Source of the DNA: a virus
Reading direction: 5' to 3' (one strand)
IMG/VR virus record: IMGVR_UViG_3300034061_003159
Location: 1-38,360 of that record
Length of the DNA stretch: 38,360 nt
The translations under genes were made by a program, and so were the position numbers. The notes beneath the pieces were generated by a model. The model was not told where the DNA came from, searched no databases, and saw only the letters and a list, made by a program, of their open reading frames with translations. Of the stretch, positions 27,701 through 38,360 are shown one piece after another; within the stretch, counting starts at the first letter, position 1; every line of letters begins with the position of its first letter.

Positions 27701-30700
27701 TTGGATATCCATCCCTAGACCATCCTATTATTATAGAATGTAATGTATTTTTGTTCGGATCATTAAATTCTAAACCTTCTCTACTTGAATAATATCCATT
27801 TACTGCGTATGTTAAACCAGTTTTATCTTTATTTTCTAAGTAAAACTCGCCAGGATATCTATAATAATCATTGACGGTTAATGACCTTATAGTTGGAATA
27901 AGAACAGCTCCCTGTCCCGGTGTTGAAATAATAATACTTGTGTTATTATCATATCCAACTCCTTCATTTAATACAATTACAGATTCTATCAATCCATTAG
28001 TTACAACTGCTCTTAATTTACACCCTAATCCAGATCCAACAACTTCTAAATCTATGTTTTTGTCATAATCAAATCCTTTATTCTGAACTTGAACTGATAC
28101 AACTTTGCCATTAATTAATAAAGGTTTTAATTGAGCTCCAGATCCTTTTTTAATAGTTACAATTGGATTTATGTTTAAATTTAATGCAGTTGATCCATAA
28201 TCACTACCCTGATCATAGAGATATGCCCCAGTAACACTTCCTCTAACAATTGGAGTTAATTTTACCTCTGAAGAAATTCCAATGTACTCCGCAGTTAAAT
28301 TTACTTCTATTGGTGGGTATGAAAAAATTTGATATCCACTACCGGAAGAATTAATACTGACAAATTTTCTTTTCAAATAGTTTAATTTACTACTTTCAGT
28401 TTCATTTTCTTCTTTTAAACCACCATCAGACAGTTTAAAATTATCCGAATCAATTTTTAATACATAGTACTTTTTATTAGTATCTAATCCATTAATTTGC
28501 TGCCCGTCAAACGAGTAGTTTATTAAATCTCCATCATTAAAATTATGATTTTTAAATCTTATAGTGTCTGTTTGGACTATTACATTGGAAGGTTTAACCT
28601 TTAAAACTTTATTAGTATAACCTTCTCCAGGATTAACTATTCTAACGTATGATAAAACTTTAATCGGATCATATAATCTAAATTTATGAATTCCATATGT
28701 ATTTACTGTTGTTAAACCAACAGTATTAATACCACTAGTTAAATCATTTAAACTAGTGTAAATTTGAATACTAGTTGAATTTATAACTTTGGGATAATAA
28801 ATTCCACCGTTTATTAGATATTCGCCACTATCTAAGTTAGATCCACCAAAGGATCCTATACCAATACCCAAATTTCCATTTGAATTGTATACTATTTTTT
28901 GTCCATCTAATAATGCATGTGGAGAACTAAAAGAAAAAGTATCGTTGGAGGGATTTATAGATCCTCCAAAATCTATCGTTTGCGCACTAAAAGTTATCTC
29001 TCTAAATTGTTTTTTTGTGATTGGATCAAAAACTGCGCCTTTTCCATTTCCACCCTTTGCTGATATTGAAATAACTCTTTCAATTCCAAATTGTTGAGGA
29101 TCTACAAGCACATCTTTAAAATTTCCTGTCACTATTAAATTTAATAGTGCAGTTGTTCCAATACCCGTGTTTGGACTTGTTATTTCTGCTCTTGGTGGAC
29201 TAATGACATCATAATTAAATCCTTGATTAGAAACATCAATTTTTTCTATTGGACCATAAAAAACTTTATCAGTAGATTTATAATTTATAATATCAACACC
29301 ATTTATTAAAGATCCAATGATTCCCGGAGAAGTTTCAATATTTTTTTCGGATAAATCAAAATTTTGATTTATTGTAAATTTTTTAAGAGAATTAGAAGGT
29401 AATAAAATTTGAGATGCATGTTGAATAAGAACAAATCTATGGGATCCAATAGAATAATTTTTATCAAAACGTAAAAAATCTTTTACTGGTAAAAATGATG
29501 CTGCAGAATATAGACGTATTTTATTTTTTTGCGGTAAAACTTCGACTATAAATTCTGAATTATTTTGCAGTCCATTTATAGGAGAATCTGTAGTATAAAA
29601 ATATTTTACTACATCTCCAGTTAAAAATGGAACTTCATTATCAAAAGAAAGTACTGTATATTTTCCTCCCAAAATTCCATCAAAAAATTCGTCACTATCA
29701 TTATTTGAATTAATATTTTTTATAGATTGTTTAATATCTAATGTTATTTCTCTCGACGGTAACGAGTTAGACGCAACATACATTTCATTTTGTTCTGAAA
29801 TGTATGTGTTTTGAACGTTCGAAATAACTTGTGGATATTTTATTGGAATAAAAGTACTAGATGCAAATTCATAATTTCTTCTAATATCTATTTTTTGTTG
29901 TGGTAATATTCCAAATATGGGAGAATCTAACGTTATTTCTCGCTGATTAATCGAAGTTACAACAACATTATCTAAAACTTTTTGTTCTGTGTCGGTTAAT
30001 AAAATATCTACAAAATCACCTACCTTTAAGCTGCTCGGATGAGTGTCTTCATAAAGGGTTATTACTGGACTTCCAATAGAAAATTTTTGTATGTTATAAC
30101 TAGATTTTGTATTATAAATCCAAGAATTAAATGCATACTCTTTAAATTCTTTTGTTGCTATATCATATCTAATATCAGATCCAAATTCTCCAACTTCTAC
30201 AATATCATTTTCGGATAATAGAATAGAATTTTCTATTCCAGAAATACTAAACAAAGATCCAACTACTACAAATTCTACTTTTTTTTCTATATTTCCATTC
30301 TCATAACCATATAAAATATAATCTTTAAAATATAATTCTTTTCCAGGATTTATTGGACTAAAAACTCCAGAACATTCATAAAATTGATTGACACTTTTAT
30401 TCTGATACGTAATTTCTTGTCCATTGCAAATAAATTTTCCAGAGTTTTCAAACCCTAATGTAGAATCAACCGTAATTGTTGAGGAACCAATAGAAACATT
30501 ATTTGATACTTTAGTTTTTGGTGTGATTTTAAAATTACCCTCTATTAAATCATCATCACCATATCCATAAAATAAATGAATTTTATAAAGAGTTTTATTA
30601 TTTTTTGTGGATATGTCAATTTTAGATATTGGGCCTGAAAAAGAACCATCTACACTTCTTATTTGCTGCCCAACTAATTTAAACGGATCACAATTTTCTG

Positions 30701-31451
30701 TAATTAAATCACAAACTACAATATTTCTACGTAAATATTCTCCAGAAGAAGGTTTTATTAAAAAGTTTTCAAGATTTATAATTTTTGGATCTTCATTAAA
30801 CAAGACTTTAAAAAGAATCTTTATTGATTCATCAGTCCCTTTTGTTTGATAAAAACTTTTTATATTGGAAATGAAATTATTAATATCTAATTCTGGGGAG
30901 AAATCAAAATCTTCAAATCCTGGTGCAAAAAGATATTTTAACTTTTTATAGAACTCTTCTAAGAATAAAGAACTTAAGTTTGTTACTAATGAACCAGATT
31001 TGTGAGAAGAAGATTTTGTTGTTGTAAAAACTAACTCCTCTGGATTTGATACATTATTAAAAGAAGATATTCCAGAAAATCCACGGAAACAACCTAAAAG
31101 GGTGTTTCCTTCAATTCTTTCATATGTAATTATTTCATCATCAATTTTTAACAAACCATATTGTTTTGGAAATCCTTTTGTAGAAGAAAGAACTATATTA
31201 TTAGATGTCGCTAATATATCAGAGGTAATAGTAATCTGTTCTCGATTTATTTTATCATTTAAAAAATCGAAATTTAAATACTGATCTAAATTCTCTATAA
31301 TATCTGAAGGACCACCTTCAAATTCTTGAGAAATATAGTATTGCTTTAAGAAATCCAAAAATTTTGGATTTTCATCCAAAATAAATTCTGGTATTTGATT
31401 ACTAATAATTTCGTTTACTTTTATTCTACTCTCAAAGTTTGTCGATATCAT
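18741..31451 (-). CDS. 7: Giant gp7-like baseplate wedge protein with YHYH domain
   Basis: A 4,236-residue protein between gp6 and gp8, the position of T4 gene 7. Its N-terminal 320 residues match the C-terminal region of T4 gp7: an ENPKFLDFLKQYY segment, then SFYQTKGTDESIKILFKVLF (T4 DFYSTKGIEASYKFLFKVLY) and LITENCDPFKLVGQQIRSVDG. Residues about 1195-1360 form a YHYH-type domain (GWSRDGYPIYGPYGY, LDEHNGRF, PNGTYAYY). The rest is beta-rich: RG-type modules (KIDDEIITYERI...GCFRGFSG, near 95-130), many GxGY modules, and a C-terminal IFINGVLQEPGVSYEYKGG region. Frame is unbroken for 12.7 kb. GAGG precedes the ATG. T4 gp7 has 1,032 residues and no YHYH domain. Confidence 0.88.
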   Translation of the reverse strand: MISTNFESRIKVNEIISNQIPEFILDENPKFLDFLKQYYISQEFEGGPSDIIENLDQYLNFDFLNDKINREQITITSDILATSNNIVLSSTKGFPKQYGLLKIDDEIITYERIEGNTLLGCFRGFSGISSFNNVSNPEELVFTTTKSSSHKSGSLVTNLSSLFLEEFYKKLKYLFAPGFEDFDFSPELDINNFISNIKSFYQTKGTDESIKILFKVLFNEDPKIINLENFLIKPSSGEYLRRNIVVCDLITENCDPFKLVGQQIRSVDGSFSGPISKIDISTKNNKTLYKIHLFYGYGDDDLIEGNFKITPKTKVSNNVSIGSSTITVDSTLGFENSGKFICNGQEITYQNKSVNQFYECSGVFSPINPGKELYFKDYILYGYENGNIEKKVEFVVVGSLFSISGIENSILLSENDIVEVGEFGSDIRYDIATKEFKEYAFNSWIYNTKSSYNIQKFSIGSPVITLYEDTHPSSLKVGDFVDILLTDTEQKVLDNVVVTSINQREITLDSPIFGILPQQKIDIRRNYEFASSTFIPIKYPQVISNVQNTYISEQNEMYVASNSLPSREITLDIKQSIKNINSNNDSDEFFDGILGGKYTVLSFDNEVPFLTGDVVKYFYTTDSPINGLQNNSEFIVEVLPQKNKIRLYSAASFLPVKDFLRFDKNYSIGSHRFVLIQHASQILLPSNSLKKFTINQNFDLSEKNIETSPGIIGSLINGVDIINYKSTDKVFYGPIEKIDVSNQGFNYDVISPPRAEITSPNTGIGTTALLNLIVTGNFKDVLVDPQQFGIERVISISAKGGNGKGAVFDPITKKQFREITFSAQTIDFGGSINPSNDTFSFSSPHALLDGQKIVYNSNGNLGIGIGSFGGSNLDSGEYLINGGIYYPKVINSTSIQIYTSLNDLTSGINTVGLTTVNTYGIHKFRLYDPIKVLSYVRIVNPGEGYTNKVLKVKPSNVIVQTDTIRFKNHNFNDGDLINYSFDGQQINGLDTNKKYYVLKIDSDNFKLSDGGLKEENETESSKLNYLKRKFVSINSSGSGYQIFSYPPIEVNLTAEYIGISSEVKLTPIVRGSVTGAYLYDQGSDYGSTALNLNINPIVTIKKGSGAQLKPLLINGKVVSVQVQNKGFDYDKNIDLEVVGSGLGCKLRAVVTNGLIESVIVLNEGVGYDNNTSIIISTPGQGAVLIPTIRSLTVNDYYRYPGEFYLENKDKTGLTYAVNGYYSSREGLEFNDPNKNTLHSIIIGWSRDGYPIYGPYGYEDPSNFSSQIVPLKSGYTLNPQNVYNRPSLQDLPPGFFVEDYSFTNSGDLDEHNGRFSKTPEFPNGTYAYYSSTKLDISTAAKTEIVPEFPYFIGNSYRSKPEDNFDLDQNLDLDDETLLRNTFPYRINRKFSRNYYLPKNFGLKQKSEIKSVETGSVDGLIVQIPGENYSVGDKIIFDNEGTGGTGALGVIEKVLNGSDIQSINTTYNLYENVEFTWENSNTIVGKILPSHNLLDQESVEISGLSTSSIKNLAGNHKIIVEPENALLMRELSPASSVGVTTDVYLNKPLSNVSIGSSISINNETFRILNIFENNILRCVRNQTGISHTLSSLVKEIPCIFKIKLNSEYFESKNKSIVYFNPVNSVGVGTLEGKETSITQYYGDFSKQVSVPTRSIYIPNHPFKTNDLVKLSASPSLGSASILVSNTSSGFEFSLPPEVTEDSYVYVINKSKDFIGIVTTVGLTTSSSGLYFASNGSDKYDYKLESVLSSSEVLTGTVSKIKTTINTYTNHGIQNGEFIDLKVIPNLSGISTLKYNSNFNVLLVNPQVFGSSSVSTNENTITLPSHTFQTGQKVFYNAANYVNGGISTGIYYVHKVDSNRIKLCETNSDAISFPVNEINIQNSGGSGQEISKVNPQILSIRNNDLIFDLSDSSLSGYKFDLFYDKNFNRNFVSTAATSQFNVSRSGTIGINAELKLNYDGNLPPLYYCLLNDNNPIFSNDNESDYQIIFVDSFYNQQNCIAYQSSNTSFSISLKRIPESLGYTDQNSNIQYTTSSKNAVGPIASLKLLSGGSGYKKIPRIVGVDTSFSKKLPGKNAYINATTKSIGKYKSIEISNDGFDYPSDKTLRPSANLNTLLILSDNEEISQINVIDGGKNLLSKPNLVLIDTLSREVVQSGILELSLNGSSVGSVKIISRPKGLRSSVHRLYTVNNSNGVSIIGVTTCVDGIVHALVRTPPVYGFTTPPFDVGDYIFVEGVEKGRSEDEFGNISFPGDGFNSTDHGYNFFRVTDFINDPGNSVLKYDISPYTLNPGIPVLSQTTYSSAINEKSYPIFDIVQVKSKFFDGEALYVNNIPTDLEIRNASQDSINVSKTSQEIKIFDRIKGAFSNSQATITDVVSYSGRFNYFSSSKSNLGWLTDVGKLNLDTQALPDNDYYQNLSYSIKSNVEYDRYSEPLNKLVHPIGTKSFGEIGFSSGAKTSIGGTSSLSTVLNLDNQRRVDIIKDYDIAFDYEATQFFSSNVRLLNKKLSNFIECRSNRVLQIDDISNSFSSSEFNKDEFLESITYNITDFYSKFLVQVSNTKNTLEDEISYQVSDLVILNDFKNTYTLNKSNIFTNFDLGYFEGQINNVGDPSLIFNPSDPYGTSYDIKIYREYFSPDNVTGFGITNYGFLRLFSESKEVSPQIGFSTSVFRALSSDYHTIQSSSLIINTRDYSLNYYEVVGTYDGENTHLAEYYFDSSQYFGGYSSGYIGTFGLSVNSGVINLSFINNTNDKLIIKTKTVAIGKTELGEGTHRFLVEDQIPGSEKTSRIESDYRFITGITTIKTFDSSTESLLKSLVRVSVGSTIAIYQVIVISDQTYTKLQSDPFITVGQSNGIGTFSSNNDGSLVNLVFHPDNQFLQSSILVQSVDQFIYSEYDEFNIPEILSYGASRERIYINKYGSINNYGKDRLDFDLNWNRIPIFEKSFNPKNTRQLDLSTGVFTIRNHFFEDNEELIYTPTSSLVGVAASSVGIGSTLVGGTIFTGDSIVGFKTITGIASTDGIITTGDNIINGPNISDNTSIVSIGLTYSYFVGNVSSGSSVITGISNTSILTVGSGIYSGNNTQYGTIISIGINSITSSVYPPSSSGILYYSSNLNYSATLSNVATATSFRNQFQVGIITSICPSTVYARKIDENNFTITGTKNGIGFTFTNSGGGNVHKFEMKKKLEKTVLTVNGVLQSPISYTPLSKTLSNNIGGLVSAGTSFISLSGISSIQPIDILKVNNEYMTVINVGFGTTVYGPISGLGTIPLCNVNRGTLGSISTTHSDNSDVRIYRGSYNIVGNKIWFSEAPDGKGNNALLADNYLPLPKSTFNGRVYLRKDYSTNRIYDDISLQFTGVGRTFTLYSQGKTVSDAIPGNNILILNDIYQTPDTTNNTTNNYEILNSGGISSIRFKGITLPNTSQTFTVDYDINQNDLPKGGVLVSLAFTGGYGYAPLIGVPSDVLDVSVGAGGSIKSIGFTTSIIVGLAATGNIGITTDIITGINTDSIRINQKVMNILNKYVDEIKFVPQYVNLKVPNITNILQNDTLVSSVGVNSITLSKLTTNASSLTTSFGFDFGDEFKGSGYFNSVSVAITDTSHVGSAATIIANVGSGGSITSFSIINGGTGYSNPMAVISDPTYQNLSIKGLYRPSIGNTSTTGIGLSITVVASPSERVGIGSSYSYISDFIITKPGYSFELGDVFTLNGLTTSAGLSKPLEELVFTVTEVKSDTFAAWQVGEFDFVDTIKSLQNGSRTRFPLIKDNKLLSFERSKTDPAADIIDFSTILLIFINGVLQEPGVSYEYKGGTTFKFFEPPKFEDNISIFFYRGTIGVDSVEINVYPTIKPGDSIQIKQNENLPFTIGQDPRVISFITSSDSFETGIYLGEGIDELNPKPMDLIPQKTDLVTNLITQYKDRDSLESQVFPTAKIIKSISSSDTEIFVDDAQFFKYEENDFDLNIPNFSGLIINHKTIVSAALTATVSVASTISKITVNDGGSGYNGVGVGNSILLKLRSVSSIGGTDATIYATVSAAGTITTPIDIVNPGYGYTSSNPPEVIAPVSGSTNELVTDINFVQGFSGIITGITTCPGIGTYMALKFFTSYDQDSNISDLLVGYPIYIFDTSIGNGITSIDSNNLEIVSIGNTYCDNIYKIHQIVNLNLNGEIICNISDNTTVVGLNTSGSSIKGRFSWGKFSSVKRSETNPLSIDLSSYTTSPGLSSFPTIQRRGYGLRELGGLVKIFLD

Positions 31452-31452
31452 A

Positions 31453-33333
31453 TTACCTCGTTATTTTACCGTTAGAATAACTTGAAGTTACTGGAAAATC
31501 AACTCCTGAAATTTGCTCACCAGAAACAATAGTATCTCTTAGCATATTTATGTTGTTTGCGCTAGTGTTTACGTCAAAAATAACGTATAAATCTTTTAGT
31601 CCTATTACATCATTTGATTCTGGATATGCCTGAACTTCAATTACACCATTTGGTAAAGAAGTTGAGGAAATATTGATCGTATTGATAAGTATTTCGCCAG
31701 TTTTGTAATCAACAGTGCCTATTGATTTTTTAACAATTTGGAATGTTTTTAAATCTTCTAATGGTTTAACTATTGTTAACTCTCCAATATCACTAGATGA
31801 AGCAACATCAACGAAGAAACAAGTTCCAGTTTCCCCCAAAATAGTAAATCCAGTGCTTTTAATGTTATATTTACCTAGTTCTTTATGGAATTGATTTCCA
31901 AAACATAACTCATACTGGGCAAAATTATTTAAAACACAATTTAAATTGCGTCTCATTTTAACTTTCGTAATATTTGAAGTTATAGAAGGATCAACATTAT
32001 CAATTAGTTGAACAACTTTACTATATCTAAACCTACCAGAGAATTTATTAGATTGTATAGATTTTGCGTAATTATCCAATGATGTAATTACCTTTTCTTT
32101 TATTTCAGAGGGATTTAAAATTCTATTTGAATTGTAATAAATTGAACTATCTATTTCAACATAAAGAACTTTAAGATCCATTATCTGGTGATTTATTCCA
32201 ATTACACCATATTTTTTTAATTTTTTAACAATATCTTGTTTCGTGAAGTCGGATAATCTATAAGAATCTTTTGGTTTAATACTTATGAAAACATTTCCGT
32301 ACTGAGGTGGTTCCATAGTTTCACCTCCAATAACAGTTACTGCTTCTGCTTCTGGATATAAGTATTTTACTATAGATTCATAATCTACTGAAGTAACTGC
32401 TCTATATTGTGAAGAATACAGTCTAGGGGCAAAATACTTTATAGAATCTATAGATTCTATATCATTTCCACCAGTAGCTGGAGATAATGTAGTTATAGAT
32501 ACTGGTTGCGCAGGAGTTTGAATTTGGTCTAAATTATTAGTTAAAATGCCAGCAAATGAAAATAAAGATGGACCATCTCCGTTTTTGCCATCAGTGATGA
32601 TATAACTAATTTCTACAGTAGATCCTCCCTCTATAGGTTTTCCCAAAATACCATCACCAAATAAGATTTGATACCTATTATCTTCTATCTCTTGTATCAA
32701 AAATATTTCAGAATTTCCATCAATTTCTGTTATATTATCAACTAAACTATATTTTAAACCATTAACTTTGACATTTAAGGTGCTAGTATCTATATTTTGA
32801 TTATCTAAAATAAATTTACGAGTTGATTGATTAACATTAGTAAATTTTTGTGTAATTAAATTACCTTGATATATTTCAACTTCTGTAAAAGTTGCTATTG
32901 CTGAATTTGCATCAACTGTAGTAATTATATTGGAAGGTATTGAAAAAACATAATTAGTATTTTCTGAAGCGCCCACACAAACTAATCCAGATTTAAGTAT
33001 AATTTGTGTAGGTGCTGTAGATACAGATCCTAAATTTACATTAAACGATATTTTTGCTTTTGAGCATGTTTTGGATCTAGGAACATAACCTACATTTCTT
33101 GCCAATGAAACTACATTTTCTCTAACAGTTGCAGAATCTAAAAAAGATTCATTAACTATCATATTTGCATTGAATGCTGTTATGTAAGTATTGTATGCAA
33201 GAACATCAATTAAGACGGATAAATTTGAACCTTCAAAATCAAAATCGGTGAAATTTGAATTTAACCGAAGGTAATCTTTTATTGATGTTTTAATCTGATC
33301 GAAATCCAGATTTGCAAATTTAGTAAAAGGCAT
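31453..33333 (-). CDS. 6: Baseplate wedge subunit gp6 (baseplate J-like)
   Basis: gp6 forms the inner ring that ties the six wedges together and controls baseplate opening. The N-terminus PFTKFANLDFDQIKTSIKDY, then SNLSVLIDVLAYNTYITAFN and NESFLDSATVRENVVSLARN, is diagnostic. QILFGDGILGKPIEGGSTVE is the conserved baseplate-J core. The length is 626 residues, close to T4 gp6 (660). It ends one base before the gp7-like ATG and begins one base after the gp25 stop, a tight gp25-gp6-gp7 unit. Confidence 0.96.
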   Translation of the reverse strand: MPFTKFANLDFDQIKTSIKDYLRLNSNFTDFDFEGSNLSVLIDVLAYNTYITAFNANMIVNESFLDSATVRENVVSLARNVGYVPRSKTCSKAKISFNVNLGSVSTAPTQIILKSGLVCVGASENTNYVFSIPSNIITTVDANSAIATFTEVEIYQGNLITQKFTNVNQSTRKFILDNQNIDTSTLNVKVNGLKYSLVDNITEIDGNSEIFLIQEIEDNRYQILFGDGILGKPIEGGSTVEISYIITDGKNGDGPSLFSFAGILTNNLDQIQTPAQPVSITTLSPATGGNDIESIDSIKYFAPRLYSSQYRAVTSVDYESIVKYLYPEAEAVTVIGGETMEPPQYGNVFISIKPKDSYRLSDFTKQDIVKKLKKYGVIGINHQIMDLKVLYVEIDSSIYYNSNRILNPSEIKEKVITSLDNYAKSIQSNKFSGRFRYSKVVQLIDNVDPSITSNITKVKMRRNLNCVLNNFAQYELCFGNQFHKELGKYNIKSTGFTILGETGTCFFVDVASSSDIGELTIVKPLEDLKTFQIVKKSIGTVDYKTGEILINTINISSTSLPNGVIEVQAYPESNDVIGLKDLYVIFDVNTSANNINMLRDTIVSGEQISGVDFPVTSSYSNGKITR

Positions 33334-33334
33334 T

Positions 33335-33736
33335 TTATCTGATTGCCTCTAAAATGTAGGTGAATGTTTGTCTTGGTGCAGTTTCACCAATAATATTAAA
33401 GTATATAATAATTTCAAAAGAATTTAAGTCTGGATAAGGAGTAACCTCAATCTCAACATCAGATACTCTTGGTTCAAAGTTTAATATTGCAACTTCTATA
33501 TAATTTTTTAATATTGAAGCCGTACCAAAATCTATAAATTCAAATAAACTAGGTTTTATTTGAGATCCAAACAGAGGATTAAAAAATCTCTCACTTGGAA
33601 CAGTTTGAATAATATTTTTTATAGACTTTTTAATCGCAGTTTCATTAGTCAAAACGAGAATATCTTTGGTAACTGGGTGCATATCAAAAGATAAACTAAT
33701 ATCTTTAAATCCTTTTGATATTCTCGTTATTGCCAT
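33335..33736 (-). CDS. 25: Baseplate wedge subunit gp25 (lysozyme-fold, non-enzymatic)
   Basis: gp25 anchors the sheath to the baseplate through gp6 and is conserved in all contractile injection systems. The 133 residues compare with 132 in T4. SFDMHPVTKDILVLTNETAI, QTVPSERFFNPLFGS and the EPR-type motif LNFEPRVSDVEIEV are characteristic. A TATAAATA late promoter lies 27 nt upstream of the ATG, making this the first gene of the baseplate wedge transcript. Confidence 0.96.
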   Translation of the reverse strand: MAITRISKGFKDISLSFDMHPVTKDILVLTNETAIKKSIKNIIQTVPSERFFNPLFGSQIKPSLFEFIDFGTASILKNYIEVAILNFEPRVSDVEIEVTPYPDLNSFEIIIYFNIIGETAPRQTFTYILEAIR

Positions 33737-33763
33737 TAAAGTATTAAATGATGTACTTTTTTT

Positions 33764-33771
33764 TATTTATA
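33764..33771 (-). promoter_or_regulatory. T4-type late promoter (TATAAATA) for gp25-gp6-gp7
   Basis: A perfect TATAAATA on the minus strand, directly after the stop codon of the 81-residue gene and 27 nt before the gp25 ATG. Its exact consensus and its place at the head of the baseplate wedge genes make it the best-supported late promoter here. Confidence 0.75.
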
Positions 33772-34017
33772 CTAGGTCCATGGACGTCCGTAAATTGGCT
33801 CTGTTCCATAATCCCAATCATCATAATCTACATCATTTCTTATAGATTTGTGAGATGCTTCAGATAAATTGAATTTATTTTTTCCAATTTCATCGTGCAT
33901 GATTTCCTGAATTACTTTTTTCTTTTCTGGAGAGGAATTGTAATCAGTCACTAATTTTGTGGTGCCCCACATTTGATGCATGTAGTTTTGATCTCTATCT
34001 ACTGGTAAATTTGACAT
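33772..34017 (-). CDS. Small conserved hypothetical protein upstream of gp25
   Basis: An 81-residue charged protein beginning SNLPVDRDQNYMHQMWGTTK, with a helical middle (SPEKKKVIQEIMHDEIGKNK) and an acidic aromatic C-terminus (DVDYDDWDYGTEPIYGRPW). A good AGGAG Shine-Dalgarno lies 6 nt before the ATG at 34017. It has no recognised domain. Its place between speD and gp25 suggests a virion-assembly helper, but nothing in the sequence shows a function. Confidence 0.7.
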   Translation of the reverse strand: MSNLPVDRDQNYMHQMWGTTKLVTDYNSSPEKKKVIQEIMHDEIGKNKFNLSEASHKSIRNDVDYDDWDYGTEPIYGRPWT

Positions 34018-34025
34018 TTTAGCTC

Positions 34026-34055
34026 CTGTTTTTTGGTAAAAACAGAACTTTTTTT
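34026..34055 (+). terminator. Hairpin plus T-tract, terminator-like on the plus strand
   Basis: CTGTTTTT (34026-34033) pairs perfectly with AAAAACAG (34038-34045) around the loop TGGT. On the plus strand, after AAC, it is followed by seven T residues (34049-34055). This is the form of an intrinsic terminator, but no plus-strand gene is present. On the minus strand the same stem lies in the leader of the 81-residue gene, and its 3' arm abuts the AGGAG Shine-Dalgarno sequence, so it could tune translation instead. Confidence 0.5.
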
Positions 34056-34086
34056 GGAAGGAGGTTGCTATCTCCCCTACCAGTAT

Positions 34087-34413
34087 TTAACGATACAAGT
34101 ATCTTAACTTATAATTGTCAGAATTTAGGTATTTTAACAGTTCAATAGCAATTAATTTTGGATTTCCTTCGCCACAGGTGTAAACATCTATTGCCAAACA
34201 CCCATTTTCAGGCCATGTATGGCAAGAAACGTGACTTTCTGCGAGAGAAATCACGATTGTACACCCTTGAGGTACGAAACAATGTGAAAAAATGTTCAAA
34301 ATAGTCATTTTTGCACGATTAATGCCCCTTTCCATTGCTTCTTGGAGAGATATGGCATCATTAATGAGGTTAGAATCGACATCATACACTTCGAGAAGAA
34401 GGTGATTTCCCAT
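34087..34413 (-). CDS. speD: S-adenosylmethionine decarboxylase proenzyme (SpeD)
   Basis: This pyruvoyl enzyme decarboxylates S-adenosylmethionine to supply the aminopropyl donor for spermidine. I take the ATG at 34413 (108 residues); the open frame extends five codons to a TTG. The hallmark LAESHVSCHTWPENG contains the self-cleavage site Glu59-Ser60, where Ser60 becomes the pyruvoyl group; the active-site His65 and Cys80 (DVYTCG) are also present. The length fits the short bacterial and archaeal class. It is a known auxiliary metabolic gene of cyanomyoviruses. An AATAAATA motif 34 nt upstream suggests late expression, perhaps to supply polyamine for packaged DNA. Confidence 0.95.
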   Translation of the reverse strand: MGNHLLLEVYDVDSNLINDAISLQEAMERGINRAKMTILNIFSHCFVPQGCTIVISLAESHVSCHTWPENGCLAIDVYTCGEGNPKLIAIELLKYLNSDNYKLRYLYR

Positions 34414-34446
34414 TGAAAACTGTTTCAATTCAATTTAGATAAAAAA

Positions 34447-34905
34447 TTATTTATTTCTAATATTTTGAACCATTTCGTAGTCTTTTTCCAAGATTTTTTT
34501 TAGATATTCATCGTCCCAAAGATCATAATATCCAGTTTTTGCTAAAATTTTTCTCATTTTAGTCAAAAATTGTTCATTTTGATATAATATTAGGTTATAA
34601 AGTCCATTATTTGTTTGAACACCGTTAATAAAACTTACTTCATCTCTAAAATCATCAAAAAATTTGTATTTTGGATATAATTCATTCAATTCTTGAATTT
34701 TTTGATATCCATAATCTATATCTAAATCATCTTCAACTACAAAAATGACGACACCAAACTCTTCATCAAGAGGTTTGATATCGTCAATTGAACAATTTAT
34801 AATTTTATATGTATTTGTTTTTGCAAAAGGGCATATCGAGAAACCTTTGAGGTCTGGATGAGATTTTTTTAGTTTATCAATCCACTCCTCAAGGTCATCA
34901 ATCAT
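34447..34905 (-). CDS. Conserved hypothetical protein with a GFSICPFA motif
   Basis: A 152-residue soluble protein. It starts EEWIDKLKKSHPDLKGFSIC, with PFAK at about 26-29, resembling the WxxxxV..LxxCPFA opening of DUF1415-type proteins, although the rest is not clearly that family. A central VVIFVVEDDLDID stretch and the block INGVQTNNGLYNLIL are the most distinctive parts. Homologues appear in T4-like cyanophages next to the small basic gene upstream, with which it overlaps by 4 nt (ATGA). The function is unknown; a cysteine-dependent or metabolite-binding role would be speculation. Confidence 0.75.
   Translation of the reverse strand: MIDDLEEWIDKLKKSHPDLKGFSICPFAKTNTYKIINCSIDDIKPLDEEFGVVIFVVEDDLDIDYGYQKIQELNELYPKYKFFDDFRDEVSFINGVQTNNGLYNLILYQNEQFLTKMRKILAKTGYYDLWDDEYLKKILEKDYEMVQNIRNK
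34448..34455 (-). promoter_or_regulatory. Late promoter motif (AATAAATA) ahead of speD
   Basis: AATAAATA on the minus strand overlaps the stop codon of the 152-residue gene and lies 34 nt before the chosen speD ATG, the same geometry as the gp18 motif. If used, speD would be transcribed with the virion genes. The background is AT-rich, so confidence is moderate. Confidence 0.5.
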
Positions 34906-35057
34906 CCTTTACCTTGACCTCTATACTTTTTACGAGCCTTATTGCGAGACGTGGCAGCATACTTGGTGCCGTCACCATCTCCCTGCCTTGTTTTCTTCGG
35001 AGGTCCAGGAATATAAGACGTGCGCTTATTCAGACCACCTTTTGCCTTTACTGCCAT
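34902..35057 (-). CDS. Small, very basic protein (51 residues)
   Basis: Translated by hand: the protein starts MAVKAKGGLNKRTSYIPGPP and ends RNKARKKYRGQGKG. About 14 of 51 residues are Lys or Arg, with Gly-rich segments and no acidic helix, typical of a nucleic-acid-binding or ribosome-associated peptide. It is almost certainly real: its TGA overlaps the ATG of the next gene (ATGA), a GGAG Shine-Dalgarno sequence precedes its ATG, and I recall a similar short basic protein in T4-like cyanophages. Function unknown. Confidence 0.8.
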   Translation of the reverse strand: MAVKAKGGLNKRTSYIPGPPKKTRQGDGDGTKYAATSRNKARKKYRGQGKG

Positions 35058-35059
35058 AA

Positions 35060-35230
35060 TTAATCTCCTACAATTTCAGTTTGTATTTCAGAAGGGTTTG
35101 GAGAACCTGTCTTATAATATTGAAATGACAGGTCCTCCAAGATGTCGAAAAATTCTTGCTCTGTTAGATTAGTGTAGATTTTACGTCCTCTACACAGAAT
35201 ATTGTATTTTTCGTCAGATTTGTTAGACAT
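35060..35230 (-). CDS. Small conserved cyanophage protein
   Basis: I choose the ATG at 35230 (56 residues, starting MSNKSDEKYNILCRGRKIYT) over the longer frame to 35278, because it shares its A with the upstream gene's stop (TGATG) and the extra 16 residues lie inside that gene. The body (NLTEQEFFDILEDLSFQYYK, TGSPNPSEIQTEI) is an acidic helical domain of a type seen in cyanophages next to the glycosyltransferase gene. No function is known. Confidence 0.75.
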   Translation of the reverse strand: MSNKSDEKYNILCRGRKIYTNLTEQEFFDILEDLSFQYYKTGSPNPSEIQTEIVGD

Positions 35231-35991
35231 CAAATAACTCTTGTTTTTTCGTGACCGACTCGTACACGTGGATCGCACCAGATTTCAAAGCCTGCTTCTT
35301 TTGCATCTAAACAGAAACTGACATCTTCTCCACACATATCTTGAACATCACCAGATTCAAAAACTTGCATCTTGGGAGCAAACCAAGGATACTTCATTTC
35401 AGAATGCTCAAATACTCCGTGCTTAATTAGCAACCAACCAAATCCAGTGTAATCAACAGTAAATGGTTTGCGGCGCTTTGAGATTGTTTCGAGAGTCTCA
35501 TGATTCATAACTCCACCATTACTGCGGAAGTCTTCTTCATCTAACCAGTGTGCAACAGATGTAGTCATTCCGTCTTCTGTTACGTACCAACCTGCTGCGA
35601 TGTCTTTGTCCATTAAGATTAATTGGAAAAACTTTTCAGTGTTGAATACAATATCAGAGTCAATCCAAAGTTGATAATCGTAATTAAGTTTTCCGTCCCA
35701 GGGAAGTTGATCAGGTCCACGAAGAACGTTTGCCCCCAAACACTTACAACGGGCAAAATTCACCATGGAACTATAATCTTGAGAAATTTGAATACTTGCC
35801 CCGTTCTGCACGAGATCGAAGCACATCTGCACAAAATTCTTCAAGAATGTATAAGAAACTCCTCTACCAGGAAGACAAAAAACAATTGATTTCCCACGAA
35901 TAATTTCTCTTGCCTTTTCGTAATCAAATTCTGGTTCTGATGAGTTTGAGGCAACGGGTGCCTTTGCTTTTACCGTAAATCCTTTAGTCAT
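35230..35991 (-). CDS. GT-A-like glycosyltransferase of cyanophage type
   Basis: A 253-residue cytoplasmic protein. CLPGRGVSYTFLKNFVQMCF (39-58) begins a Rossmann-like half. YDYQLWIDSDIVFN contains the Asp111-Ser-Asp113 DxD metal-binding motif of GT-A glycosyltransferases. CGEDVSFCLDAKEAGFEIWC (220-239) and His247 match the usual GED...H acceptor and metal region. The donor and target are unknown: modification of phage DNA, a virion protein or a host envelope sugar are all possible. A near-consensus sigma-70 promoter lies just upstream, so it is likely expressed early, before the late structural genes that follow. Confidence 0.82.
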   Translation of the reverse strand: MTKGFTVKAKAPVASNSSEPEFDYEKAREIIRGKSIVFCLPGRGVSYTFLKNFVQMCFDLVQNGASIQISQDYSSMVNFARCKCLGANVLRGPDQLPWDGKLNYDYQLWIDSDIVFNTEKFFQLILMDKDIAAGWYVTEDGMTTSVAHWLDEEDFRSNGGVMNHETLETISKRRKPFTVDYTGFGWLLIKHGVFEHSEMKYPWFAPKMQVFESGDVQDMCGEDVSFCLDAKEAGFEIWCDPRVRVGHEKTRVI

Positions 35992-36014
35992 AATAGGAAT
36001 AATTTTACTTCAGT

Positions 36015-36043
36015 ATCATACAGTATTATGTATAAAATGTCAA
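36015..36043 (-). promoter_or_regulatory. Near-consensus sigma-70 promoter for the glycosyltransferase gene
   Basis: On the minus strand, a perfect -35 box TTGACA (36038-36043), a 17-nt spacer and the -10 box TATGAT (36015-36020) precede the ATG at 35991. The predicted start near 36008 gives a leader of about 17 nt. It is the only clear host-type promoter in the AT-rich half and implies early transcription by unmodified host RNA polymerase. Confidence 0.8.
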
Positions 36044-36048
36044 TTTCT

Positions 36049-36222
36049 CTAATTTTTGTTTTCTTTCAAAATTATTTCATCTCCGTCAACCTTTAATTTT
36101 ATTTCAGTATCTTCATACCATGAAAATTCATTCACAATCCACTCGGGAATTGTCACATAATACTGACCACTTACTGGATCAACTTGCAATAACTGGCAGT
36201 CCTCTTCAAAGTTCTTCTTCAT
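36049..36222 (-). CDS. AbrB/SpoVT-like small protein (57 residues)
   Basis: Translated by hand: it starts MKKNFEEDCQLLQVDPVSGQ, continues YYVTIPEWIVNEFSWYEDTE and ends with a VDGDEIILKENKN tail. The pattern VDPVSGQYYVTIPEWIVNEFSW followed by xIKLKVDGDEIIL is that of a swapped-hairpin AbrB-type DNA-binding domain (strand, IP-x-x-hydrophobic helix, then two strands). It could be a small transcription regulator or antitoxin-like protein; no toxin gene is adjacent. It is the most upstream AT-rich gene and has its own candidate promoter. Nothing in the sequence shows its targets. Confidence 0.7.
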   Translation of the reverse strand: MKKNFEEDCQLLQVDPVSGQYYVTIPEWIVNEFSWYEDTEIKLKVDGDEIILKENKN

Positions 36223-36264
36223 TCCATTCTTTTTTACATTTTGTTTTATATAGCATATTTTAAA

Positions 36265-36310
36265 ATTATAAGCGACCTGTGGGGGAATTTTTTATGGGGG
36301 AAATTTTTTT
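36265..36310 (-). promoter_or_regulatory. TATAAT -10 box with two tandem TTCCCCCA-type repeats in place of a -35
   Basis: On the minus strand a perfect TATAAT (36265-36270) lies 42 nt before the AbrB-like ATG. No -35 hexamer is found at 16-18 nt. Instead, two tandem 15-17-bp copies containing AAATTYCCCCCA cover 36279-36293 and 36294-36310, about -20 to -52 relative to the expected start. A good -10 with a repeated box over the -35 region is the layout of an activator-dependent promoter, as with T4 MotA middle promoters, although the box sequence differs. Confidence 0.45.
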
Positions 36311-36391
36311 GGTTTCGGAGTATTATAAGTCTCATTTGGGTAACACTTTATAGATTAGGGGATCCATCGCTTTTAAGCCCACGCCCGCCGC

Positions 36392-36474
36392 CATCACGAT
36401 ACCGTTATACCATAATACTGCCATTTAGCACGAACGAACGGCATCACGCTAGCGTTATACTGTGCTGCGCTACG
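36392..36474. repeat. Imperfect direct repeat, 50-bp period, at the composition boundary
   Basis: CATCACGATACCGTTATAC (36392-36410) recurs 50 bp later as CATCACGCTAGCGTTATAC (36442-36460), 17 of 19 identical. Each is followed by a related CACGAACGAA or TACGAACGAA segment (near 36429 and 36471). The repeats sit exactly where GC content climbs from about 35% to over 60%. No gene covers 36223-36510, and these repeats, the promoter and the hairpin are all I see there. Confidence 0.7.
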
Positions 36475-36484
36475 AACGAATGAA

Positions 36485-36503
36485 GGGGGGCGGTGTGCCC
36501 CCC
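36485..36503 (-). terminator. GC-rich hairpin ending the small-gene array
   Basis: GGGGGGC (36485-36491) pairs with GCCCCCC (36497-36503) around a 5-nt loop. It begins 7 nt after the TGA of the last array gene, the same distance as the other hairpins in the array, but its loop has no TTGAC. On the minus strand it is followed by TTCATT rather than a full U-tract. It is probably the 3' end of the last small gene's transcript. Confidence 0.65.
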
Positions 36504-36510
36504 CGTGCCG

Positions 36511-36702
36511 TCACTTCACGTCGCCCAGGGCGCTGTTGGCGGTGCTCATGCGGGTGCCCCTGCTGCCTGCTGCTCCGCCATGGGTGCGAACGCGGGTGCT
36601 GCCGCCTTTGATCTGATTTGCCCAGCGGTTGGCACGGGTGCCATGGGCAACGGGCAGGCGGGTGATGGTGAACTGGATGCCGTCGATGGTGGTGGTGGTC
36701 AT
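36511..36702 (-). CDS. Small array gene 1: basic hypothetical protein (63 residues)
   Basis: A GC-rich gene with the start chosen at the ATG at 36702, because this is the end of the repeated promoter-leader block; the open frame to 36756 would run through the promoter. The protein starts MTTTTIDGIQFTITRLPVAH and has an Arg/Gly/Ser-rich second half (TRVRTHGGAAGSRGTRMSTA). It has no recognised domain. Last gene of the array in transcription order, ended by the hairpin at 36485-36503. Confidence 0.6.
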   Translation of the reverse strand: MTTTTIDGIQFTITRLPVAHGTRANRWANQIKGGSTRVRTHGGAAGSRGTRMSTANSALGDVK

Positions 36703-36739
36703 CGGGTGCGGTGCGGTTTGCTCTGGAATTCTACAGGGT
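36700..36739. repeat. Promoter-leader repeat, copy 1 (40 bp)
   Basis: A 40-bp block running from the ATG of small gene 1 through the untranslated leader, the -10 box (TAGAAT on the minus strand) and the flanking CAGGGT. It differs by a single base from each of the copies at 37009-37048 and 37336-37375. The leader contains no Shine-Dalgarno sequence. Confidence 0.9.
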
Positions 36740-36764
36740 GGAGGGGAGGGAGTCAACCCTCCCC
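36728..36764 (-). promoter_or_regulatory. Hairpin-loop promoter 1 (TTGACT in an 8-bp hairpin loop)
   Basis: On the minus strand: arm GGGGAGGG, six-base loop TTGACT (36751-36756), arm CCCTCCCC, a perfect 8-bp stem at 36743-36764. The loop is exactly the -35 hexamer of a promoter whose -10, TAGAAT (36728-36733), lies 17 nt away and 25 nt before the ATG at 36702. The hairpin begins 7 nt after the stop of the upstream gene, so it can serve as that gene's 3' end and as the next promoter. Confidence 0.8.
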
Positions 36765-36771
36765 GTGGAAA

Positions 36772-37011
36772 TCAGATCAGGTGATCTGCCAGATCCCAGC
36801 GGTGGATCGTGAACCCAGGGTGGCGCTGCTGGCAGGTAGCAAGTGCCTCAGCAGCGGTTGCTGCCCAAACAGAGATCACCTCGGGGAAGGGGTGGCAGTT
36901 GCCTTCCTGAATGCCGATGAACAGGAACTGATCAGCGAACACGTCTTCCCAGTCCTGCTCAGTGGGGATGTATGCCTCGTCGATCTGCTGCTGCTCGGTG
37001 AAGGCGGTCAT
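36772..37011 (-). CDS. Small array gene 2: acidic hypothetical protein (79 residues)
   Basis: Starts at the ATG at 37011, at the end of the second promoter-leader repeat; the longer frame to 37065 includes the promoter. The protein (MTAFTEQQQIDEAYIPTEQD, a middle with FADQFLFIGIQEG, and an end with HRWDLADHLI) is acidic. A helix SVWAATAAEALATCQQRHPG resembles small domains in which an Ala-rich helix follows a short beta sheet. No family is recognised. It is a separate transcription unit between hairpin-loop promoters 2 and 1. Confidence 0.6.
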   Translation of the reverse strand: MTAFTEQQQIDEAYIPTEQDWEDVFADQFLFIGIQEGNCHPFPEVISVWAATAAEALATCQQRHPGFTIHRWDLADHLI

Positions 37012-37048
37012 CGGGTGCGTTGCGGTTTGCTCTGGAATTCTACAGGGT
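37009..37048. repeat. Promoter-leader repeat, copy 2 (40 bp)
   Basis: The second copy of the 40-bp block, 39 of 40 identical to copy 1 (one G to T change in the leader). It includes the ATG of small gene 2, the leader and the TAGAAT -10 box. Confidence 0.9.
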
Positions 37049-37074
37049 CGGGGGCGGATGGTCAACCCGCCCCC
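37037..37074 (-). promoter_or_regulatory. Hairpin-loop promoter 2 (TTGACC in a hairpin loop)
   Basis: A perfect 8-bp stem, GGGGGCGG with CCGCCCCC (37050-37057 and 37067-37074), closes a 9-nt loop that contains the -35 hexamer TTGACC (37060-37065). The -10 TAGAAT (37037-37042) is 17 nt away and 25 nt before the ATG at 37011. The hairpin starts 6 nt after the stop of small gene 3. The stem differs from the other copies yet remains fully paired. Confidence 0.8.
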
Positions 37075-37080
37075 AGGAGA

Positions 37081-37338
37081 TCAGATCGCCAGGGCGGCAG
37101 CGATGCGGTCCCGCTTGCGGATCGCGGTGGGCACGATGAACCAGAGGTCGCGCTTGCCGTTATCGCTGCGGGTGGCATCCAGGATGCCTGCCTTCTCCAG
37201 GTCAACCATCACGGCGTGGATGGTGCCCTTATGGCGGCGGGGGTCCATGCCCATGGCGCGAACCAGGTCGCTGCAGGTCATCGGGCCGTCGTTGATCAGG
37301 CGGGTGCGGATCGCGGTGCGGATGATGGAGGTCAGCAT
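37081..37338 (-). CDS. Small array gene 3: winged helix-turn-helix-like protein (85 residues)
   Basis: Starts at the ATG at 37338 next to the third promoter-leader repeat. The protein has a helix (LTSIIRTAIRTRLIND), a turn GPMTCSDLVRAMGMDPRRHK, a recognition-helix-like GTIHAVMVDLEKAGIL and a beta wing (RSDNGKRDLWFIVP), followed by a basic helix. This is the layout of a small winged helix-turn-helix DNA-binding domain, so it could regulate the array or host genes. The assignment rests on pattern only; no close family is recognised. Confidence 0.65.
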   Translation of the reverse strand: MLTSIIRTAIRTRLINDGPMTCSDLVRAMGMDPRRHKGTIHAVMVDLEKAGILDATRSDNGKRDLWFIVPTAIRKRDRIAAALAI

Positions 37339-37375
37339 CGGGTGCGGTGCGGTTTGCTTTGGAATTCTACAGGGT
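37336..37375. repeat. Promoter-leader repeat, copy 3 (40 bp)
   Basis: The third copy of the 40-bp block, 39 of 40 identical to copy 1 (a C to T change close to the -10 box). It spans the ATG of small gene 3, its leader and the TAGAAT -10 box. Confidence 0.9.
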
Positions 37376-37401
37376 GGGCGGGGCACCCGTCAAGGTGCCC
37401 C
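37364..37401 (-). promoter_or_regulatory. Hairpin-loop promoter 3 (TTGACG in an 8-bp hairpin loop)
   Basis: GGGGCACC and GGTGCCCC (37380-37387 and 37394-37401) form a perfect 8-bp stem whose six-base loop is exactly TTGACG (37388-37393). The -10 TAGAAT (37364-37369) lies 18 nt away and 25 nt before the ATG at 37338. The hairpin starts 7 nt after the stop of small gene 4. Confidence 0.8.
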
Positions 37402-37408
37402 GTAGGGA

Positions 37409-37600
37409 TCAGTACCCCAACCAGGTCAGCAGTTCGCCAGCGTCGATGCCGCCGATGCCCCAGCGGTCAGCAGTGCCGTACTCCTGCAGGAACTCATTCA
37501 CACTGCCGTGAAGGTCGGCAGCATACAGGGCGTCGTCATAGGTGATGCATCCGCAGTCGTCAGCGATGTGCAGCAGTTGCTCGGTGAAGGTCTCAGGCAT
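37409..37600 (-). CDS. Small array gene 4: acidic hypothetical protein (63 residues)
   Basis: The protein (MPETFTEQLLHIADDCGCIT, a middle with DDALYAADLHGSVNEFLQEY, and an end with GIGGIDAGELLTWLGY) is acidic and helical. It resembles short cyanophage and marine cyanobacterial hypothetical proteins as I remember them, without a known role. The ATG at 37600 is 24 nt from the TAGAAT -10 of promoter 4. Its own leader has diverged from the 40-bp repeat, while the -10 and CAGGGT flank are kept. Confidence 0.6.
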   Translation of the reverse strand: MPETFTEQLLHIADDCGCITYDDALYAADLHGSVNEFLQEYGTADRWGIGGIDAGELLTWLGY

Positions 37601-37624
37601 GGTTCCCTTGCGGTGTACTCCAGA

Positions 37625-37653
37625 ATTCTACAGGGTCAGGGGGCAGGGGTCAA
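37625..37653 (-). promoter_or_regulatory. Promoter 4 (TTGACC-17-TAGAAT) overlapping a stop codon
   Basis: On the minus strand the -35 TTGACC (37648-37653) and -10 TAGAAT (37625-37630) are 17 nt apart. Here the TGA stop of small gene 5 lies inside the -35 hexamer. The hairpin seen at promoters 1-3 and 6 is reduced to about three or four pairs, so this copy keeps the promoter but not the stem. Confidence 0.75.
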
Positions 37654-37829
37654 CCCTCCAGGGGCACCACGTCGTCGGCGTAGCGTTCGGCGTAACGTGC
37701 TGCCCACCAGTACCCTTCGGCAGGGTTGATCTGCCCAGCGAAGCGATCCTGGGGGGCATACTCAGTCTTACGGGCAACCCACATGGTTTCGCGGGTTTCC
37801 AGGTTAGAGCAGGCGGAGAAGATTGCCAT
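37650..37829 (-). CDS. Small array gene 5: hypothetical protein (59 residues)
   Basis: Translated by hand from the ATG at 37829: it starts MAIFSACSNLETRETMWVAR, continues KTEYAPQDRFAGQINPAEGY and ends WWAARYAERYADDVVPLEG. It is rich in aromatic residues. Its TGA falls within the -35 box of promoter 4. A run of nine C residues lies directly before the ATG on the coding strand. The upstream -10 candidate is TACAGT (37855-37860), 25 nt from the ATG, but the -35 is poor. No domain is recognised. Confidence 0.55.
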   Translation of the reverse strand: MAIFSACSNLETRETMWVARKTEYAPQDRFAGQINPAEGYWWAARYAERYADDVVPLEG

Positions 37830-37854
37830 GGGGGGGGGTGTCGGTTGCTTGGGT

Positions 37855-37860
37855 ACTGTA
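37855..37860 (-). promoter_or_regulatory. Candidate -10 box (TACAGT) for small gene 5
   Basis: TACAGT on the minus strand, 25 nt before the ATG at 37829, has the same distance as the other array promoters and the same sequence as the -10 of promoter 6. At 17 nt spacing the -35 would be TGGGCA, inside the end of small gene 6. No hairpin is present. It is the weakest of the array promoters. Confidence 0.4.
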
Positions 37861-37865
37861 GCAGA

Positions 37866-38051
37866 TCAGAAGCGCACTGCCCAGTTCGGATCGGTCAGGC
37901 AGTTCACCCAGGCGCACCAGGTGCGGTTGCTGCTCACGCAGAACAGGTCGTTGCCCTGGCGCTGCTCAACCACCACCACGGGGTCGCCTGCCATCTGGTT
38001 TGCCAGGCGGTTCTTCGCCTTGGCAGAGATGGGGGTCAGGGTCACGGTCAT
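37866..38051 (-). CDS. Small array gene 6: hypothetical protein of cyanophage or cyanobacterial type (61 residues)
   Basis: Starts at the ATG at 38051 just after promoter 6; the longer frame to 38102 runs through the promoter. The protein (MTVTLTPISAKAKNRLANQM, GDPVVVVEQRQGNDLFCVSS, NRTWCAWVNCLTDPNWAVRF) has the pattern KAKNRxxNxMxGDPxxxVEQ...LFVxSxN...W.....DPNW, which I associate with short hypothetical proteins of cyanophages and marine picocyanobacteria. No function is known. It is the best clue that the GC-rich segment is also of cyanobacterial or cyanophage origin. Confidence 0.65.
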   Translation of the reverse strand: MTVTLTPISAKAKNRLANQMAGDPVVVVEQRQGNDLFCVSSNRTWCAWVNCLTDPNWAVRF

Positions 38052-38072
38052 CGGTCGGTTGCGGTTGAGAGA

Positions 38073-38110
38073 ACTGTAGTCTATGGGTGGGGCAGGCGTC
38101 AACCTGCCCC
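38073..38110 (-). promoter_or_regulatory. Hairpin-loop promoter 6 (TTGACG in an 8-bp hairpin loop)
   Basis: GGGGCAGG and CCTGCCCC (38089-38096 and 38103-38110) form a perfect 8-bp stem with the loop exactly TTGACG (38097-38102). The -10 TACAGT (38073-38078) is 18 nt away and 21 nt before the ATG at 38051. The hairpin starts 7 nt after the stop of small gene 7. The -10 and leader differ from the 40-bp repeat, so the hairpin-loop design is kept even where the flank is not. Confidence 0.75.
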
Positions 38111-38117
38111 GTGAGGA

Positions 38118-38360
38118 TCAGATCCTCTCCAGATCGCCGTGCTGCAGAGCACGGTGGAGCAGGCGGCCCCAGGAGGTTGCCTCCCGTGCCTCGGGATCCT
38201 GCAGGAGGTCAGTCCAGCGAGCAGCAGCGCCGTCATCCTCAAAGGCGAAGCGGTATTCGGTGCTGCTGCTGGTGTAGGTCACCAGCAGGTCGAAGGTGCC
38301 CTGCAGGTCACCTGGCACGATCGCCAGGTGGGAGATGGCGCTGCTGTTCACAGAGGCGGC
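38118..38360 (-). CDS. Small array gene 7: hypothetical protein, start probably beyond the window
   Basis: An open frame that still reads through the last nine bases of the window, so it is probably truncated. A GTG at 38351 could start a 77-residue protein, but no promoter or leader can be seen in the remaining bases. The protein includes HLAIVPGDLQGTFDLLVTYT, STEYRFAFEDDGAAARWTDL and ends LHRALQHGDLERI; a beta hairpin followed by acidic helices is likely. No family is recognised. Confidence 0.55.
   Translation of the reverse strand, partial: AASVNSSAISHLAIVPGDLQGTFDLLVTYTSSSTEYRFAFEDDGAAARWTDLLQDPEAREATSWGRLLHRALQHGDLERI

Follow-up and report, generated by a model that had tools for sequence, protein, structure and literature searches.

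Gene-end hairpins with a candidate -35 box in the loop: composite intergenic elements of T4-like cyanophages

Introduction

Promoter-early stem-loops (PeSLs) are reportedly present in the T4-like phages RB49/phi1, PST, and nt-1/KVP40, in accounts by Arbiol in 2010 and Comeau in 2014, and RB49 is the phage in which they were originally described. Here we report a series of short intergenic elements, each a GC-rich hairpin whose loop holds a candidate -35 promoter box, at one end of the virus record IMGVR_UViG_3300034061_003159 (IMG/VR); the entire record of 38,360 bases was analyzed and is referred to below as the window. Passages of PMC4503421 that cite the earlier work present PeSLs as composites of promoter and terminator through which genes are shuffled in T4-like phages, and state that few were found in S-PM2. 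A further resemblance is to the haloarchaeal virus HGTV-1, in which, according to passages of PMC3950731, a promoter-like (TATA-like) box and an inverted repeat precede most open reading frames (ORFs) of one region, a motif that its authors compared with PeSLs. However, that promoter is archaeal and the virus unrelated, and its likeness to the present elements is drawn here at the level of description.

The elements of the window resemble PeSLs in being short intergenic composites of a stem-loop and a host-type early promoter (recognized here by sequence only), in their density among small non-core genes in variable regions of T4-like genomes, and in their position at apparent sites of gene exchange, as judged by alignment-block edges and changing neighbors, for which recombination is the presumed cause. 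The geometry recurs in related contigs, the stems co-vary around a constant loop, and breakpoints are enriched at the elements. With regard to the terminator feature of PeSLs, the hairpins are predicted to be strong (-17 to -20 kcal/mol) and are followed by a T-tract in AT-rich relatives, but the T-tract is missing from the elements of the window's GC-rich island, which is a difference from PeSLs. A second difference lies in the order of the parts. Our scan of the RB49 genome placed hairpins over the spacer or -10 box at 21 TTGAC promoters, upstream of the -35 box at two and around it at none, whereas in the present elements the -35 box is the loop; this order is unlike that of RB49, although order is not known to define PeSLs. 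We consider it likely that the elements as a whole are a variant of the PeSL principle in which the hairpin holds the -35 box instead of the spacer or the -10 box.

Results

Hairpins With TTGAC in the Loop

Four hairpins on the minus strand of the window have GC stems of 8–9 bp that start 6–7 nucleotides (nt) past TGA stop codons, carry TTGAC in the loop, and have predicted energies of -17.2 to -19.9 kcal/mol. First-order Markov versions of the window contained none of these elements in 4/4 runs, vs. the four observed. A preliminary description of this DNA had named the same four junctions, with loops of TTGACT, TTGACG, and TTGACG and a fourth containing TTGACC, and with -10 boxes (TAGAAT or TACAGT) at 17–18 nt; all of these are present as it described them, the individual spacers being 17, 17, 18, and 18 nt, but a fifth promoter belonging to the series (37625–37653) is absent from its set of four. 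The features, with boxes assigned by sequence, are as follows:

36728..36764, minus strand: composite element 1; hairpin 36743–36764, GGGGAGGG-TTGACT-CCCTCCCC; -35 box TTGACT at 36751–36756; 17 nt; -10 box TAGAAT at 36728–36733
37037..37074, minus strand: composite element 2; hairpin 37050–37074, GGGGGCGG-GTTGACCAT-CCGCCCCC; -35 box TTGACC at 37060–37065; 17 nt; -10 box TAGAAT at 37037–37042
37364..37402, minus strand: composite element 3; hairpin 37379–37402, CGGGGCACC-TTGACG-GGTGCCCCG; -35 box TTGACG at 37388–37393; 18 nt; -10 box TAGAAT at 37364–37369
37625..37653, minus strand: fifth promoter of the series; TTGACC, 17 nt, TAGAAT; weak stem, -8.5 kcal/mol
38073..38110, minus strand: composite element 6; hairpin 38089–38110, GGGGCAGG-TTGACG-CCTGCCCC; -35 box TTGACG at 38097–38102; 18 nt; -10 box TACAGT at 38073–38078
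36485..36503, minus strand: hairpin at a gene end, downstream of the array's last gene and lacking a promoter; GGGGGGC-ACACC-GCCCCCC, loop ACACC

The sigma-70-type promoter boxes (TTGAC, 17 or 18 nt, TAGAAT or TACAGT) are found in both the window and its relatives, and their consensus, spacing, and conservation lead us to infer that the elements have promoter activity. At 37625–37653, the upstream gene ends in a TGA (37650–37652) that sits within TTGAC (37649–37653). The same overlap of coding end and promoter was observed in the contigs L113, L145, L176, and L179, where the stems are also weak. The hairpin that closes the array at 36485–36503 has a counterpart at the matching island edge in a 177-kb relative (GGGGGGCG-GCACA-CGCCCCCC; L400 10631). 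A search of 33000–38360 with Rfam models produced no match up to an E-value of 0.5.

Pairing of the Stem and Constancy of the Loop

Because a -35 box is common and the island has a GC content of 63%, GC runs might form palindromes around such boxes by chance, and the outer GGGG/CCCC pairs are indeed nearly invariant, with swapped arms still pairing there in 65–77%. Using a pattern (GGGGNNNNTTGACNNNNNCCCC plus the -10 box) in which GGGG/CCCC, TTGAC, and the -10 box were fixed and the inner stem was free, all four inner stem positions were paired in 58/153 viral matches (related contigs included) vs. 3/119 in cellular genomes. The matches in cellular genomes are thus chance-like, and we rejected the idea that the design occurs there. 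In 116 promoters gathered from related islands regardless of hairpins, a list with some false positives, a promoter's own arms paired at inner positions 1–4 in 62–73% and swapped arms in 33–46%. For 58 distinct cores, 78.9% of cells were paired vs. 67.3% after shuffling, both sides change in seven of the eight pairs, and the covariation score was 0.349 vs. 0.161 +/- 0.018 for shuffled and 0.15–0.21 for slid pairings.

As the 58 cores were chosen by TTGAC and share it by selection, constancy of the loop rests instead on the reverse scan, in which the stem GGGGCACC/GGTGCCCC was fixed and the loop left free. TTGACG was the commonest single loop (20 of 85 distinct matches), and 19 of those 20 had a -10 box at the right distance. 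These results support the conclusion that pairing and the TTGAC loop are each kept independently. The preliminary description had proposed as much, noting stems that differ yet stay paired around an unchanging TTGAC, and the inner-pair, free-loop, swapped-arm, and covariation results, the last obtained on collected elements as it had suggested, all agree with it. Chance or composition is thereby hardly credible: the inner pairs co-vary, pairing exceeds the swapped-arm control, matches in cellular genomes are without inner pairing, and AT-rich genomes with 0–1 elements expected carry the same design (see below). For the main set, we regard this explanation as already refuted by the sequence comparisons.

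Recurrence in Related Contigs

With the 61-residue protein of the array (37866–38051) as query, 22 related viral contigs were identified and pattern scans added more; the elements recur in dozens of related IMG/VR contigs having the same AT-rich/GC-rich junction. In blastn searches with 35001–38360, many contigs crossed the junction (L142 at 98.3% over 35001–37766, others at ~70–92%). We had considered an assembly chimera of two genomes and rejected it because many independent contigs share this AT/GC junction. Across the 177-kb relative, G001, GC content exceeds 48% in just four 1-kb bins, at 171–175 kb, which is the site of its island elements. A GC-rich (~60%) cassette island within an AT-rich (~30–35%) T4-like cyanophage genome is seen in the window (36360–38360), in G001 (171–175 kb), and, as the same junction, in many contigs.

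The island had no blastn match among named phages, and a first pattern scan (TTGAC-N18-TGTAGAATTC) matched 46 contigs, none of which showed the array on inspection. Cultured relatives of the 61-residue protein gene occur in S-CREM1 and S-SRM01 (48–52% identity). In both, the homolog lies within tightly packed small ORFs and there is no room for an element at that position, as the neighboring genes abut or overlap.

AT-Rich Relatives and the Function of the Hairpin

The AT-rich T4-like cyanophages S-PM2, DSL-LC02, S-CREM1, and G001 have this hairpin as well, with a T-tract directly downstream and the -10 box after that. G001 has three versions:

version 1: GGGGGA-TTGACT-TCCCCC-CTTTTTTT-ATGTAAAAT
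version 2: AAGGGGGTT-GACA-AACCCCCTT-TTTTATTGCTAGAAT
version 3: GGGGAGTT-GACA-AACTCCCC-TTTTTAATGTATCCT

A scan for the design with the -35 box in the loop gave one to three candidates each in S-CREM1, S-PM2, DSL-LC02, and P-SSM2, relative to 0–1 elements in Markov versions of the AT-rich phage genomes. The same scan gave no candidate in T4, RB49, or the first 50 kb of KVP40, and when the whole KVP40 genome was scanned more narrowly, no -35 box in a loop was found. KVP40 has one promoter with TTGAC in the stem of a hairpin (AAAGGGTTGAC-TACG-GTCAACCCTTT). Syn9 and S-CRM01 each had a single candidate that is unlike the others, being without a GC-run stem or T-tract. The hairpin with the -35 box in its loop is kept at the high-light-inducible (hli) gene in G001 (70466), S-PM2 (124309), DSL-LC02 (91331), L175, and L180, with stems that differ; the S-PM2 element lies at the end of S-PM2p171, before hli03. 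Contigs with the T-tract version are similar to Synechococcus T4-like phages around the replication and phoH genes, one resembles Methylophilales phage Melnitz, and L149 had no match.

Ordinary intrinsic terminators of these phages likewise consist of a GC stem of 6–8 bp followed by a T-tract in AT-rich parts of the genome, but their loops (GAAA, TTCG, or CTAG) contain no -35 box and they had no scored promoter; those with GAAA or TTCG loops are also found in G001. The hairpin in the AT-rich phages is accordingly predicted to be an intrinsic terminator with the -35 box of the next promoter in its loop. Given that a T-tract follows this hairpin in the AT-rich relatives, a combined terminator and promoter is the best reading of the elements in general, and to this extent the shared terminator and promoter of the preliminary description holds; however, no T-tract follows the stems in the window. 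The canonical combination of hairpin and U-tract is thus found in the AT-rich relatives of the design and not in the island elements.

The hairpin of the island might alternatively be non-terminating, shielding the upstream mRNA at its 3′ end or only weakly blocking read-through, with only the promoter a strong signal. This is possible although rather unlikely. Stems without a T-tract are what it would lead one to expect, and in Synechococcus PCC 7002 transcripts are reported to have longer half-lives when hairpins lie 3′ of the genes (Gordon, 2020, in a passage of PMC7843447). On the other hand, the same architecture has a full T-tract in the AT-rich relatives, passages of PMC7843447 report that cyanobacteria are without Rho and rely on intrinsic termination, and a title cited there (Ahmad, 2020) reports U-tract-independent termination in mycobacteria. 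We infer that canonical intrinsic termination may take place in the window's island; termination there could also proceed without a U-tract or be weak, or 3′-end protection could take its place.

The T-tracts bear on two further explanations. A palindromic operator, in which a repressor dimer sitting on the inverted repeat occludes the -35 box, would fit the overlap of repeat and promoter, and one gene of the array may encode a winged-helix protein. Yet the stems are strongly different (GGGGCAGG, GGGGCACC, GGGGAGGG, and others) with pairing alone conserved, the array-end hairpin at 36485–36503 has no promoter to regulate, and the AT-rich versions end in T-tracts; we judged an operator very improbable and discarded a protein-bound operator on the basis of the differing stem sequences. 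Equally improbable is that extrusion of a cruciform (DNA hairpin) governs promoter access, as in the hairpin promoters of phage N4. Short perfect inverted repeats around the -35 box are suited to extrusion, but sigma region 4 recognizes the -35 box as double-stranded DNA, which extrusion would block, and the RNA-level signs (the position after the stop codon and the T-tracts of the AT-rich versions) would be left unexplained.

Gene Array and Exchange at the Elements

The first 36 kb of the window are AT-rich (mostly 26–39% GC) and contain T4-like genes on the minus strand, including those for baseplate wedge subunits, the terminase large subunit, and S-adenosylmethionine decarboxylase. A single ORF of 4236 residues (18741–31451) lies amid the baseplate wedge genes, and a comparably placed 16-kb ORF in S-CREM1 is annotated as a baseplate wedge subunit. 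The switch to GC-rich sequence occurs at ~36.4 kb, the last full kb having 63% GC, and this end of the window contains a row of small minus-strand ORFs without known families:

36511..36702, minus strand: small ORF, 63 residues, last of the array
36772..37011, minus strand: small ORF, 79 residues
37081..37338, minus strand: small ORF, 85 residues, possible winged-helix protein (MarR_2, E-value 0.011, below the Pfam cut-off)
37409..37600, minus strand: small ORF, 63 residues
37650..37829, minus strand: small ORF, 59 residues
37866..38051, minus strand: small ORF, 61 residues, the query that found the related contigs
38118..38360, minus strand: small ORF, runs past the end of the record

Upstream of the gene at 37650–37829 (interval 37829–37866), there is a TACAGT with neither a hairpin nor a TTGAC box upstream of it.

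ORFs that follow elements belong to 33 families across 43 sequences. The distance from stop codon to the next TTGAC is 15 nt in 62 cases, 16–23 nt in 24, and -4 in five, the last being those in which TGA lies within TTGAC; longer distances represent stretches without a scored element of the strict form. Neighbors change across the elements, as the family of 37409–37600 is followed across an element by at least six different downstream families in relatives, and family E by five. At the 79-residue ORF, several relatives have no alignment block and the adjoining blocks stop at its flanking elements. Overall, 66 of 100 alignment-block edges relative to the window fell in intervals from element to start codon that together account for 25% of the span (binomial p ~3e-18, on an assumption of independence that the edges do not satisfy). 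There is consequently moderate support for gene exchange at the elements, with recombination as the probable cause of the breakpoints, and an element with its ORF behaves as a cassette, blocks of genes apparently being swapped at the elements.

This arrangement also invites the view that the inverted repeat is chiefly a recombination site, integron-like or otherwise a recombination substrate, its overlap with a promoter being secondary. One gene per element, swapped neighbors, and block edges at the elements would be expected of such a site, and integron cassettes (attC) are similarly modules of one gene, bounded on either side by an inverted repeat. However, the present repeats are perfect, short, and variable and each comes with a promoter (an integrase was not searched for); since the stem sequence is free to vary, there is no fixed recognition site. 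Homology that runs through the -10 box and leader to the start codon is sufficient for ordinary homologous recombination, and recombination has no need of a kept TTGAC loop with a -10 box at fixed distance or of the T-tracts in relatives. A dedicated recombination site is accordingly improbable.

Discussion

We propose that the element is a compact intergenic signal common to two adjacent genes of a T4-like cyanophage. As RNA of the upstream gene, the GC hairpin just past the stop codon would end or protect the transcript; as DNA, its loop would supply the -35 box for an early promoter of the host sigma-70 type which, with the -10 box 17–18 nt on, would drive the next small gene. With a like element on each side of every gene of the array, element plus ORF would form an expression cassette complete in itself, and cassettes would be added, deleted, and reordered when elements recombine by homology. 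The sequence comparisons suggest promoter use, termination or protection of 3′ ends, and a recombinational origin of the breakpoints, and we consider the elements to be real, conserved, and probably functional.

Several observations weigh against this proposal. Stems are weak at some promoters of the series, including that at 37625–37653, and at many of the 59 imperfect candidates among the promoters gathered without regard to hairpins. The hli promoter of Syn9 and S-CREM1 is kept without a hairpin, from which it follows that the hairpin is dispensable for the promoter. The island elements average only 1.9 T in the 9 nt after the stem, and canonical U-tract termination is for that reason not predicted in the GC island. 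Lastly, the enrichment of block edges, which are non-independent, is weaker under a circular shift that keeps their spacing (p = 0.014).

The preliminary description had suggested that the fused design might be undescribed in phage gene arrays. Promoter-terminator fusion as such is known from PeSLs, as passages of PMC4503421 relate, but the placement of the -35 box in the loop seems to be the new part, set apart from PeSLs by our scan of the RB49 genome and not by the PeSL papers. Our comparison with the literature, to which the original PeSL papers did not belong, found no relevant account of a -35 box in a terminator loop. More tentatively, and with somewhat less than even confidence, we suggest that the elements form their own class of composite regulatory element in T4-like cyanophages, one whose -35 box doubles as the loop of the preceding gene's terminator, whose cassettes are portable and of one gene, whose distance from stop to promoter is rigid, and whose termination or insulation is U-tract-free in GC-rich islands.

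These findings make it testable whether a stretch of ~40 bp is enough to finish one transcript and begin the one that follows, whether a GC hairpin that lacks a U-tract stops the RNA polymerase of cyanobacteria, and whether the elements drive gene turnover; an element might also find use as a very short insulated promoter part. For the phages themselves, the elements provide a co-varying sequence signature of the way in which T4-like cyanophages may string many small genes together as independent, exchangeable expression units, and would extend the PeSL principle to phages in which, judging from the passage on S-PM2 in PMC4503421, PeSLs were thought to be sparse.

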